64,000 nucleotides of DNA from Pseudomonas sp. ISL-84 (lineage in GTDB: Bacteria > Bacillota > Bacilli > Bacillales > Cytobacillaceae). The stretch lies in the NCBI GenBank assembly GCA_018613035.1, contig JAGGRA010000029.1, positions 1 to 64,000 on the forward strand, read 5' to 3'. Below, piece after piece: positions 6,609 to 48,945 of this stretch; positions within the stretch are counted from its first letter, which is position 1, and each line of letters opens with the position of its first letter. The position numbers were made by a program, and so were the translations under genes. The notes under the pieces were generated by a model that saw only the letters and a list, made by a program, of their open reading frames with translations, made no database searches and had not been told where the DNA came from.

Positions 6609-6701
6609 ACCGGCCAAAAATGAACATTTACCGGCCAATTCTCCCTATTTACCGGCCAAAGTCAGCAAAATACCGGCCAAACTGGCCCATTTACCGGCCA
6701 A
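6609..6701. repeat. Phased repeat array 1: five ACCGGCCAA units at exactly 21 bp
   Basis: ACCGGCCAA starts at 6609, 6630, 6651, 6672 and 6693, separated by 12-bp spacers that differ from one another but often end in TTT. The first unit overlaps the frame-restored 3' end of the NERD gene; eno's terminator lies 40 bp beyond. No ribosome binding site precedes the open frames across it, so it is judged noncoding. Confidence 0.9.
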
Positions 6702-6740
6702 CTATTATTTTGGATGCTGCACACCAGCAATATTACCTGT

Positions 6741-6772
6741 TAAAAAACAGCCGCCCCACCCGGGACGGCTGC
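6741..6772 (-). terminator. Terminator of the glycolytic operon (after eno)
   Basis: Minus strand stem CAGCCGTCCC / GGGGCGGCTG (6771-6748), then TTTTTT (6747-6742). Confidence 0.9.
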
Positions 6773-6784
6773 TCACCAGCAAGA

Positions 6785-8080
6785 TTACTTGCTCAAGTTA
6801 TAGAAAGATTTTAATCCATCGTACACAGCTAAATCGCCAAGCTCGTCTTCGATGCGAAGAAGCTGGTTGTATTTAGCGATACGGTCTGTACGGGACATGG
6901 AACCAGTTTTGATCTGGCCAGCATTTGTTGCCACTGCGATGTCAGCGATTGTAGCATCTTCAGTTTCACCGGAACGGTGGGAAACTACTGCAGTGTAGCC
7001 AGCACGCTTCGCCATCTCGATTGCTTCAAATGTTTCAGTTAACGTACCGATTTGGTTAACTTTGATTAGGATTGAGTTGCCTACGCCTTGCTCAATCCCT
7101 TGAGCTAACTTCTTCGTGTTTGTTACGAATAGGTCGTCACCAACCAGCTGAACTTTTCCGCCGATGCGGTCAGTTAATAGCTTGTGGCCTTCCCAGTCGT
7201 TTTCGTCCAGACCATCTTCAATAGAGATGATTGGGAATTCGTTTACAAGCTCTTCATAGAAGTTAACCATATCTTCAGAAGTTAAGCCTGTGCGGCCTTC
7301 GCCTGCAAGATCGTATTTGCCAGTTTCTTTGTTATAGAACTCAGAAGAGGCAACGTCCATTGCAAGGTGGATGTCTTTACCGGCTTCGTAGCCAGCGTTA
7401 GAGATTGCTTCGATGATGACTTCAAGAGCTTCACGGTTTGAGCCAAGGTTTGGAGCGAATCCGCCTTCGTCACCAACAGCTGTGTTCAGGCCTTTGCCAG
7501 ATAAAACTTTTTTCAACGAATGGAATACTTCAGCACCCATGCGGATTGCTTCTTTGAAAGTAGGAGCTCCAACAGGCATGATCATGAATTCCTGGAAGTC
7601 TACGTTGTTGTCAGCATGAGATCCGCCGTTGATGATGTTCATCATTGGTGTTGGAAGCTGCTTCGCGTTGAAGCCTCCAAGGTAACGGTATAAAGGAAGT
7701 CCTACAGACTCAGCTGCAGCATGTGCACAAGCCATAGACACGCCAAGAATTGCGTTCGCACCTAGCTTGCCTTTGTTTTCAGTTCCGTCTAATTCAATCA
7801 TGGTGCGGTCGATGCCTACCTGATCTGTTACATCCAGGCCGATTACAGCGTCAGCAATAAGGTTGTTCACGTTGTCCACTGCTTTTTGAACACCTTTTCC
7901 AAGGTAGCGGGACTTGTCGCCGTCACGAAGTTCTACAGCTTCGTGCTCACCAGTGGAAGCTCCAGAAGGAACAATCGCACGGCCGAAAAAGCCGGATTCT
8001 GTTAAAACTTCAACTTCAACTGTTGGGTTACCGCGGGAATCTAATACTTCACGAGCATAAACATGTTGGATAAATGGCAT
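6785..8080 (-). CDS. eno: Enolase
   Basis: Converts 2-phosphoglycerate to phosphoenolpyruvate in glycolysis and is also a degradosome-like partner in Bacillus. The 431 residues are close to B. subtilis (430). Visible signatures include [13 protein letters not shown], the active-site signature [13 protein letters not shown], and SHRSGETED in the C-terminal barrel. It is last in cggR-gapA-pgk-tpiA-gpmI-eno, 65 nt after gpmI, and is followed by a strong terminator. AGGAGAGA precedes the ATG. Confidence 0.98.
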
Positions 8081-8145
8081 ATCAATTCTCTCCTTTAATA
8101 TAAAAAAATGGTTTTCGACAAAATTCGGGTGGTACCTGGTACCGA

Positions 8146-9681
8146 TTATTTTTTCAATAGAGTTGTTCCAGTCATTTCAACAGGCTTTTCCAGTCCGAGC
8201 AGGTCGAGCACGGTTGGGGCAAGGTCTCCCAGGATTCCGTCTGTGCGGAGTTCTGCGCCTTCCTGTGTGACGATGACTGGTACTGGGTTTGTGGTGTGGG
8301 CGGTCATCGGGCTGCCTTCCAAAGTAACAACTTCGTCGGCATTTCCGTGGTCAGCTGTAATGATAGCCTTTCCGCCTTTTTGAATAAGCAAGTCGACAAT
8401 TTTGCCTAAGCATTCGTCAACTGTTTCTACCGCTTGGATCGTTGGCTCAAGCATACCTGAGTGGCCGACCATGTCCGGGTTTGCAAAGTTAAGGATGATC
8501 GCATCGAATTTGTCAGCTTCTATTTCCTTCAGCAACGCGTCCGTTACTTCATAAGCACTCATTTCAGGCTTAAGGTCATAGGTAGCTACTTTCGGTGAAT
8601 CAATCAGAAGCCGCTCTTCGCCAGGGAATTTCTCTTCACGTCCGCCGCTCATAAAGAACGTAACATGAGGATACTTCTCTGTTTCCGCAATGCGGAGCTG
8701 AGTTTTATTATTTTGCGCTAAAACCTCACCTAAAGTGTTATCCAGGTTTGTCGGCTTAAACGCAACATATCCATCAACCGTTTCACTGAAGTGGGTTAAG
8801 CAAACAAAGAATAAATTCTCTGGATGCCCTGGCCCTCTATCAAATGAACGGAAGTCTTTATTCGTAAAAGTGTTCGAAATCTGAATGGCCCGGTCCGGAC
8901 GGAAGTTATAGAAAATAACCGCGTCATTGTTTTTGATCGTTGCAACCGGTGCACCATCTTCTTTTGTAATAACAGATGGAATAACGAACTCATCGAAAAT
9001 CCCATTTTTATAGTTATCGTCAACTAAATCCAGAGGATCACTGTACGCAGGGCCATCTCCATACACCATGGAACGGTATGATTTCTCAACACGCTCCCAG
9101 CGCTTATCGCGGTCCATGGAATAATAACGGCCTGAAATCGTCGCAAATTCGCCGACTCCATACTCTTTCATTTTTTCCTGAGCTTCTCTGATAAAGCCTT
9201 CAGCTGTTTTTGGTCCAACGTCACGTCCATCCAAAAAGCCATGGACATAGACATTCTTCACACCTTCTTCAGCTGCCATGCGAAGCAAGGCAAATAAGTG
9301 CTGAATATGGCTATGAACACCGCCATCTGATAGAAGTCCCATCAAATGAAGATCTGTCCCATTCTTTTTCACATGGTCAATCGCTGAACGGAAGGTTTCG
9401 TTTTTCTCAAACTGACCTTCACGGATTGCCACGTTCACTCTTGTTAAGCTTTGATAAACAATCCGGCCAGCGCCGATGTTTAGATGACCTACTTCAGAAT
9501 TTCCCATTTGCCCTTCTGGAAGCCCTACCGCTTCACCGCTCGCCGTTAAGGTTGCATTCGGGTAGGTGTTCCAAAAACGTTCGAAGTTTGGCTTCTTTGC
9601 CTGGGCAACGGCATTACCCATCCGCTCGCCCCGCAATGCGAAACCGTCTAAGATGATTAATGCAACTGGAGATTTACTCAT
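8146..9681 (-). CDS. gpmI: 2,3-bisphosphoglycerate-independent phosphoglycerate mutase
   Basis: Manganese-dependent interconversion of 3- and 2-phosphoglycerate through a phosphoserine. At 511 residues it has family length. It shows metal ligand Asp12 in LDGF, nucleophile Ser62 in GNSEVGHLN, and TADHGNADE in the phosphatase half. The ATG lies inside the end of tpiA (8-nt overlap), implying translational coupling. The dependence of this enzyme on Mn2+ and pH in Bacillus spores is known from the family. Confidence 0.98.
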
Positions 9682-47646: not shown

Positions 47647-47777
47647 AAAATGACCTCCCCATTTTGTCTAAAATTACCCTTGTTACAATTATAACGCAGT
47701 ATGTTTACATGCTTTTTGCTAGAACATTACATTGTCTTATCAAAGGAGAAATGGAGAAGGTCATTCTTGAAGGATAA

Positions 47778-48494
47778 TTATTTAAAAAAGTACTCGTTCA
47801 GGATCTTGTCAGCGATTAATTCATAGCCTTTTCCGTTCGGATGCAGAGAATCAGAGAAATATTGCTTCTTGTTTTTCCCTTTGAATAACTCATTGGTAGA
47901 AATATAGGTGATGTTTTCATCTTGCTCTGCTGTTTTCTGAATTGACTGGTTCCAATGATCAATGTATTTTTCAATTTTATCGCCATCCGGATATGGATTA
48001 TAAAGCCCCAGCAGAATAATAGGAGCTTCATTATCGGCCGTTTCCAGCGTTTCAAGAATTCCGTTTAGTTTCTCTTCATACACATTCTTCGCTTCGACGA
48101 GTTTTTCATGGTGGAGTGGATACAAATCACCGCCATTGCTCTTCAGCAAATCATTCGTCCCAATATAAACAATGAACATATCCGCTTCTTTAAGATCCTG
48201 CGCCACTTTCGGCTTGAGCATTTGCTTCAATACATCGGATGATTTATAGCCGTACACACCATAATTTTTTATTTGGTAATTCCTCTCCGGATAAGCACGA
48301 TGCAGCTTTGTCTGCAGCCTGCCGATATAGCCCTCCTTCGTTTCATCTCCGTACCCATAGGTAAGCGAATCGCCAAATGCCACAATCCTCTTGCCGCCAT
48401 CCGCTTTTTTCTCTTCTCCTAAATAGGTAATGGAAAGATAAAGTGCCAGCCCAATGAGGAGAGCTCCCGCTAATAGAAAGATTCCTTTTTTCAT
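47778..48494 (-). CDS. Membrane-anchored or secreted SGNH/GDSL hydrolase
   Basis: 238 residues beginning with a positively charged, hydrophobic signal/anchor (KKGIFLLAGALLIGLALYL). SGNH blocks are complete: block I FGDSLTYG (Ser ~42), block II glycine in NYGVYGYKSSD, block III GTNDLL, block V DSLHPNGKGYE with the catalytic Asp and His. Likely an extracytoplasmic esterase or lipase-like enzyme. Substrate unknown. RBS AGGAACAC is weak. Confidence 0.88.
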   Translation of the reverse strand: MKKGIFLLAGALLIGLALYLSITYLGEEKKADGGKRIVAFGDSLTYGYGDETKEGYIGRLQTKLHRAYPERNYQIKNYGVYGYKSSDVLKQMLKPKVAQDLKEADMFIVYIGTNDLLKSNGGDLYPLHHEKLVEAKNVYEEKLNGILETLETADNEAPIILLGLYNPYPDGDKIEKYIDHWNQSIQKTAEQDENITYISTNELFKGKNKKQYFSDSLHPNGKGYELIADKILNEYFFK

Positions 48495-48620
48495 ATATGT
48501 GTGTTCCTTTCTTGGTTGTGCCTTGCATCAGTAAGTGACTGGTATTCGATGATATTCGTTACCCGCCAGTTTTCCTTGTTTTCATATTGGTAGTATTGAA
48601 ATATTGATAGGACGCGAAGA

Positions 48621-48731
48621 GACCGATATATTGAAATTCTGACCGATATATTGTGTAAAGTGACCGATAAAATTAGATTCTGACCGATAAATCGAGAAAG
48701 TGACCGTTATAATTTATATCTGGCCGATAAA
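48621..48731. repeat. Phased repeat array 5: GACCGATAA units
   Basis: GACCGATAT at 48621 and 48641, GACCGATAA at 48662 and 48682, GACCGTTAT at 48702, GGCCGATAA at 48722; spacings 20, 21, 20, 20, 20. Reverse-complemented, the unit TTTATCGGTCA resembles array 1's TTTACCGGCCA. Confidence 0.88.
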
Positions 48732-48831
48732 CTGCGAAACGGTAACCCCTGGACCCAGTTTTCATAAAGTTGAATGGCGCCCGGCAGACATTTTCCCTTC
48801 AGGTAGAACTTCATCTATTTATAAAACTAAC

Positions 48832-48945
48832 TTATTCGCTGAATTCAAGAATTGGTTCGTGAGTTTTCTGGATTTATTCGCGAAATCCAGAGCTTTATTC
48901 GCAAGCTCAGATCGTTTCTTCGCTGAAATTTAATTTATTCGTAAA
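48832..48945. repeat. Phased repeat array 6: TTTATTCGC units
   Basis: TTCG of the unit falls at 48835, 48856, 48877, 48898, 48919 and 48939; spacings 21, 21, 21, 21, 20. It lies 100 bp after array 5 in the same hydrolase-uvrA gap (48495-49025). Confidence 0.85.

Follow-up and report, generated by a model that had tools for sequence, protein, structure and literature searches.

Bacterial genomes hold several kinds of repeats that are paired with a protein. Repetitive extragenic palindromic (REP) sequences and bacterial interspersed mosaic elements (BIMEs) are dispersed extragenic hairpins, and their cognate REP-associated tyrosine transposase (RAYT) is a chromosomal nuclease, a Y1 HUH transposase encoded by a gene that has its own repeats on either side. 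Plasmid iterons are phased direct repeats of ~20 bp beside the gene of a winged-helix Rep initiator that binds them, and plasmid centromeres of the ParR/parC type are phased repeat arrays bearing a row of ParR, a ribbon-helix-helix protein with ParM as its partner. Here we describe intergenic arrays of short direct repeats phased at 20–21 bp in a stretch of 64,000 nucleotides from Pseudomonas sp. ISL-84 (assembly GCA_018613035.1, contig JAGGRA010000029.1, positions 1 to 64,000; Cytobacillaceae in the GTDB lineage), hereafter the window. Each array very probably consists of docking sites for one protein with a NERD domain, a four-cysteine ribbon, and a predicted C-terminal winged helix-turn-helix (NERD-wHTH protein), whose winged helix reads the repeated core.

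Like REP sequences, the arrays exist in dispersed extragenic copies and are associated with a chromosomal gene for a cognate nuclease-like protein. However, their units are direct repeats with mostly unsymmetrical cores (e.g., TATCGGTCA) and not palindromic hairpins, the linked gene encodes a restriction-fold-like NERD protein and not a Y1 HUH transposase, and one genome carries several NERD paralogues with separate core dialects. With iterons they share phased direct repeats of ~20 bp beside the gene of a winged-helix protein, but they are chromosomal, many occur per genome, and the protein has a nuclease-like domain. No Pfam match to a Rep initiator was found among the six proteins flanking the window arrays, and mimicry of plasmid iterons was rejected, two window arrays having no match in PLSDB. 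What they share with ParR/parC is an array of phased repeats along which protein molecules would be lined up; the protein here has a winged helix and a NERD domain in place of the ribbon-helix-helix, and the search of the six flanking proteins gave no ParM-like partner.

A Genome-Wide Family of Phased Arrays

The original prediction had placed six arrays in the window. All were found at the positions claimed and were judged real members of a genome-wide family (Table 1; the class letters A–G are labels coined in this analysis), and the pattern said to be common to their cores was upheld, TTTA(T/C) in one reading direction being followed by a variable core. Four arrays (starting at 6607, 25631, 48620, and 48852) passed a stricter scan. 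Three phased units with at most three mismatches from the core were present in each of the weak arrays at 16261 and 32881, and phased chains of five and six units in those at 25631 and 48832; in none of these cases was any of 5,000 shuffles as good, the cores used in this test having been named after inspection of the same arrays.

We then considered the period in a self-similarity scan of 429 kb, comprising the window and 20 further stretches; 13 of the 20 had been picked for matches to the 6607 array, and the sample is thus biased toward class A. Periods 20 and 21 each had 24 arrays of at least four units, largely the same arrays as the period bins were ±1 wide; the spacing seen in the window recurs across the genome. 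The overlapping period-22 bin contained 18 arrays and other periods from 12 to 60 between 0 and 7, the highest counts falling at 41–42, which are twice the basic period. No arrays were found after Markov shuffling, done once for period 20 and once for period 21. Outside long reading frames, nine arrays were found in two contigs covered whole (C1 and C4, 341 kb), a density of 26 per Mb. The class A array at 6607 had 15 further matches elsewhere in the genome, and one degenerate pattern gave 90 phased pairs in comparison with 9 for its reversed control; the cores are classes common to many arrays of the genome. Array orientation is mixed, and some arrays, seen in a scan of named genomes, reach 42 units. 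Across 58 arrays from this genome and its relatives, spacers were more alike at a lag of two units (0.477) than at a lag of one (0.347), and the building block thus looks like a unit pair of ~41 bp.

At least one pattern match was present in 30 of 41 genomes, in some of them at counts no higher than the control. The matches listed in a scan of named genomes included Cytobacillus, Lysinibacillus, Sporosarcina, Ureibacillus, Sporolactobacillus, Planococcus, Robertmurraya, Neobacillus, Peribacillus, Metabacillus, Ectobacillus, Paraliobacillus, Gracilibacillus, and unrelated phyla; among the listed matches from unrelated phyla, 7 of the ~9 inspected sat within reading frames. Class B arrays were seen at the ends of four contigs of one assembly (G000: C16, C38, C42, and C48), and such arrays may therefore break assembly. 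One stretch of 21-bp repeats (L013, 686–961), apparently in a reading frame and perhaps part of a coiled-coil protein, is a likely false positive for genome-wide scans.

That the arrays arose by neutral slippage, or that they are translated into peptides of seven-codon units, is hardly credible. The period of 21 bp does equal seven codons, and a few of the 24 scanned arrays are probably inside reading frames (L013 among them). On the other hand, spacings of 20 and 21 bp mix within arrays, which makes translation unlikely, in agreement with the original prediction, and the persistence of cores beyond spacers, the linkage to NERD genes, and the coupling of core bases to protein residues, all described below, speak against both forms of the idea. 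Inspection by eye also led us to discard RNA hairpins between units, isolated examples of which occur in the 48832 array, as well as DnaA boxes, which fit class G alone, TnpB-like target motifs, and complementarity to rRNA.

Arrays Adjoin NERD-wHTH Genes

Two of the six window arrays (6607 and 25631) adjoin genes that match the Pfam NERD family (PF08378) with 73.3 and 70.4 bits, the cut-off being 22.1. To quantify this linkage, we required an array of at least three units with a score of at least 7 within 900 bp of the gene. The genus set had 82 rows (30 profile-search loci, the next 40 in rank order, and further known genes, many lower-ranked matches falling outside the set); an array lay near 78 of the 82, or 75 of 78 after removal of four genes fetched twice, and one of the three array-less loci stops at a contig end. 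In other genera, 25 of 29 NERD loci had an array nearby, as had 39 of 40 loci in a second set from outside the genus, one of which had been seen before. As controls, 17 of 163 ordinary genes of at least 200 amino acids from the same genome had an array at the same thresholds, as had 4 of 30 uvrA loci, scored on the downstream side only and over 700 bp. No array was found near two further NERD genes of other types in this genome (L303 and L308). The former (1009–1935) is a shorter NERD type that likewise has a cysteine ribbon and perhaps a winged helix, and it may be an array-free relative.

Most arrays lay 57–146 bp before the NERD start codon or up to ~50 bp past the stop. The upstream placement, which recurs in many lineages, would suit plain regulators, that is, autoregulated NERD-wHTH transcription factors whose solo arrays mark a regulon or insulate gene ends and whose nuclease site is a structural relic. 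We consider this unlikely. Many arrays lie 3' of the NERD gene, and unlike operators none of 30 arrays of this genome lay between divergent genes, an arrangement found for 75 of the 317 gaps that measure 130 bp or more (crude gene calls; a laxer gene caller placed one array, in L080, between divergent genes). The PD-(D/E)xK-type residues E46, D79, E92, and K94 and four cysteines are, moreover, invariant in 62 of 62 intact representatives, which is hardly expected of a relic.

In an AlphaFold2 model of the window protein with six homologues (predicted local distance difference test 87, predicted template modeling score 0.81), residues 293–302 form the third helix of the C-terminal winged helix. 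Foldseek gave weak matches to restriction-fold and other nucleases in the PDB, none at an E value of 0.001 or below, and a sequence profile found no relative there (best E 0.08). The family is large within the genus and includes broken copies: a search with an alignment of four NERD proteins from this genome matched all 36 genomes, with up to 16 matches in each. Of 150 genomes sampled across the order, 120 had NERD matches at an E value of 0.001 or better, the weakest of which may be other NERD types. In Bacillus methanolicus, an excerpt of one paper places a NERD gene 456 bp from upp (PMC12802215).

Core Bases Follow Residues of the Predicted Recognition Helix

We compared 62 proteins of less than 70% identity with their arrays in 2,168 tests of a protein column against a DNA base (standard deviation of all z values 1.15). 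The arrays were aligned on DNA alone, and some whose register or strand is plainly wrong (e.g., L307) were left so. The strongest of all couplings joined residue 293 to the first base after TTTAT (z = 10.1) and the second residue 298 to base 9 (z = 6.2), both residues being on the predicted recognition helix. The base after TTTAT was T in 13 of 13 proteins with I or V at position 293, G in 7 of 8 with R, and C in 34 of 41 with other residues. Similarly, base 7 was G with K297 (16 of 16) and with D294 (14 of 14), and base 9 was C with K298 (23 of 27). A natural swap follows the same rule: G016, with E293, has C after TTTAT, and G043, whose NERD match carries one stop, has V293 and T. The spacers of the two arrays are recognizably related, and the cores differ at this same base.

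The rule was fixed before 40 new loci were collected. At base 5 it was correct for 27 of 39 new loci (shuffled mean 15.2) and, once close relatives were dropped, for 23 of 34. With two loci whose residues (C and T) fall outside the rule and had been scored as C by the script also dropped, it was correct for 21 of 32, in comparison with a shuffled mean of 11.3, and 3 of 50,000 shuffles reached 21. Within the set of 34, R went with G in 6 of 7 loci and the remaining residues with C in 14 of 21. Among the 39, base 7 was G in 11 of 12 loci with K297 or D294 and in 14 of 27 others, and R298 went with G at base 9 in 11 of 18. The out-of-sample test supports the code overall, its R–G part best; the I/V part was not confirmed.

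Arrays Co-occur with Genes Judged Cognate, and Core Dialects Turn Over

The number of class B pairs ranged from 3 to 87 (median 30) where an intact NERD gene was judged to be cognate (11 genomes) and from 0 to 10 (median 0, 15 genomes at zero) in 22 genomes without one, while three genomes with broken copies had 6, 6, and 18. Class A pairs numbered 13–31 in five genomes with an intact class A gene at eno and 0–7 in seven without a gene at eno. The two genomes with a TATCGGCC-type gene at eno had 41 (G002) and 14 (G005), and those with broken copies 12 (G009), 12 (G012), and 9 (G045). Two congeners, G014 and G015, had only weak NERD matches (best E ~1e-21) and one weak array in 400 kb, in comparison with the 26 per Mb of contigs C1 and C4.

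The position 3' of eno holds an array in 22 of 30 congeners, with differing cores: TACCGGCC, TATCGGCC, TATGTGCGG, TATCCGCCG, TATTCGCC, and TATCGGTCA. One congener (G016, C4 708867–712690) has two eno copies separated by ~2.5 kb, each with a similar array, which look like the product of a recent tandem duplication.

In 36 pairs of related arrays, which are non-independent and in some cases doubtful, identity was 88% in cores, 67% in spacers, and 84% in flanks. As the cores are better kept than the spacers, selection on cores fits better than the copying of whole units. This bears on a homing-like or gene-conversion drive, in which the nuclease would cut at or near the arrays and repair would spread and homogenize cores and copies. 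Such a drive could account for the arrays of up to 42 units, for the large gene family with its broken copies, and for the two to six array blocks, apparently tandem duplications, on one side of six NERD genes (L344, L345, L347, L348, L367, and L378). Yet the arrays adjoin their gene and are uninterrupted by it, whereas a homing gene interrupts its own target, and a clean empty site was not seen; with the contrast between cores and spacers, this leaves drive improbable.

Mapped Arrays Are Concentrated in the Origin-Proximal Half

Of 48 array loci mapped in three genomes (G001, G005, and G018), 43 lie in the origin-proximal half (pooled Kolmogorov–Smirnov P ~ 4e-9), the mapping having taken in only arrays of the pattern TAYSSGYC and no control repeat. 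The bias would be expected if the arrays were dispersed centromere- or anchor-like sites at which NERD-wHTH proteins form bridges in, or mark, the origin-side half of the chromosome, but conserved neighborhoods near the origin could yield the same picture. Dialects and gene sets turn over fast and two congeners are nearly array-free, unlike what an essential organizer would show, and the mixed orientation of the arrays also argues against this role, to which we give little credence.

Features of the Window

The coordinates are collected in Table 1. By eye, most window arrays appear to lie beyond intrinsic terminators. G010 and G002 have arrays related to the class B array at 48620 in the corresponding position, and intact copies of the NERD gene next to the class A array occur in relatives. 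A GC-rich repeat of the GACTCCTGCGGGA type occurs at 16100–16220 and 32700–32770, in opposite orientations, and looks like a separate element; a Bacillaceae-1 RNA (RF01690) is found at 16724–16791, close to a tRNA-Arg.

Table 1. Arrays and NERD genes of the window (positions count from its first nucleotide)
Feature	Position	Strand	Remarks
NERD gene beside class A array	5656..6525	+	Retains NERD domain and four cysteines; DNA-reading C-terminal region out of frame
Class A array, 5 units of 21 bp, core TTTACCGGCCAA	6607..6701	+	3' of NERD gene; beyond eno terminator by eye
Degenerate class G array, core TATGTGCGGATA, 3 units, solo	16261..16340	+	3 phased units near core
Intact NERD-wHTH gene, 333 amino acids	24529..25530	-	NERD domain, CxxC...CxxC ribbon, predicted winged helix
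Predicted recognition helix, residues 293–302	24625..24654	-	Residues 293, 294, 297, and 298 couple to core bases
Class D array, core TATGCGTCAC, 5 units	25631..25723	+	~100 bp 5' of NERD gene start
Degenerate class D array, solo	32880..32993	+	~6 units by eye; 3 phased units at most 3 mismatches from core
Class B array, core TATCGGTCAC, 6 units, solo, 3' of uvrA	48620..48731	-	Strict self-similarity scan
Degenerate class F array, core TTTATTCGC, solo, 3' of uvrA	48832..48950	+	Shuffle test

Discussion

Binding of the arrays by their cognate NERD proteins is strongly supported by computation. The original prediction had suggested cooperative binding by a protein, or else curvature, and had missed the NERD genes beside two of the arrays; linkage, co-occurrence, and the coupling of residues to bases back protein binding and identify the family as NERD (PF08378).

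Several observations weigh against this account of docking and restraint. The 62 proteins of the coupling analysis are phylogenetically non-independent, and the third strongest coupling, of column 162 (residue 158) with base 10 (z = 5.9), is off the helix and unexplained. Over sliding windows, protein similarity correlated weakly with core similarity (rho at most 0.23); we put this down to register noise and used the column-wise coupling instead. Out of sample, guessing C throughout at base 5 is correct for 14 of the 32 loci, I/V went with T in 2 of 4 and K with G in 1 of 2 of the 34 loci, and K298 went with C at base 9 in 6 of 9. Cognate status was judged from NERD match scores and neighboring arrays, and the cognate-bearing genomes are related. 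The genome of the window itself has 40 class A pairs though its class A gene is out of frame, and G001 has 10 class B pairs without a secA-type gene; arrays outlive broken or absent genes. An array 3' of its gene cannot serve that gene as a simple operator. Finally, the PADLOC matches of the NERD protein, which bear on the possible role in defense considered below, are marginal.

On the docking model, which computation supports up to this point, the C-terminal winged helix reads the core, and the core dialect follows a few residues of its helix. An array usually stands just 5' or 3' of its own NERD gene, and other copies are solo and scattered over the chromosome. A phase of two helical turns would put all units on one face of the DNA, where, to judge from this phasing, the proteins may line up cooperatively, perhaps as dimers across unit pairs. 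The gene-side array could restrain the protein, both through autoregulation and by keeping the nuclease fixed at the site, while the nuclease itself may act on nearby or invading DNA, which would make the pair a selfish or defense-like module. As the nuclease-type residues are invariant in all 62 representatives, cutting probably matters, and for this reason we favor a self-docked selfish or defense nuclease over the alternatives. The large copy number, the broken copies, and the multiple gene-side array blocks in turn suggest a family in conflict or turnover. We thus propose, tentatively and as a possibility that falls somewhat short of an even chance, that these proteins are an undescribed, order-wide group of self-docked nucleases, similar in logic to REP–RAYT systems but independent of them in origin and selfish or defensive in role, in which the helix code diversifies fast and private arrays restrain and position the protein.

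The NERD domain is also found in the defense proteins MADS6, PglW, and MkoA, with marginal hidden Markov model matches. Unlike these and the more distant NERD-like proteins of phages, those studied here have stand-alone genes with an array alongside, are ~330 amino acids long, and end in a domain that reads DNA. The NERD protein matches a PHROG of unknown function at E values of 3e-7 to 3e-6, and its best structural match in BFVD is a phage NERD protein (E 1.9e-5). With one NERD-wHTH protein as the query, tblastn gave no matches in 50,697 phage records and a single distant match in 72,556 plasmid records, and carriage of the gene by phages or plasmids was rejected on these grounds. Nine stretches of viral contigs from IMG/VR (L274–L282) fit a three-unit array pattern; these could be coding repeats or prophage flanks. 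The arrays differ from clustered regularly interspaced short palindromic repeats (CRISPR), which have longer identical repeats and unique spacers, in their core of ~9–11 bp and period of 20–21 bp, and the six flanking proteins include no match to cas genes. A cognate methyltransferase, as in restriction-modification, was not found among the few flanking genes searched, neighborhoods not having been searched systematically.

Judged by titles and the opening parts of abstracts, with subscription papers and most preprints outside the scope, we found no work on such arrays or on their link to NERD genes. A NERD match was present in three of the control genomes, and Bacillus subtilis, itself a control, is not among them; this may explain why the arrays have been overlooked in this model species. 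The pairing described here joins abundant intergenic arrays of Bacillales to a large orphan family of nuclease-like proteins, for neither of which we found an explanation. As the link between helix residues and core bases is partly readable, the pairing is directly testable, and the family offers many natural specificity variants for the study of how DNA recognition evolves. It also prompts one to ask why several nucleases, each with docking sites of its own, are kept in a single cell.

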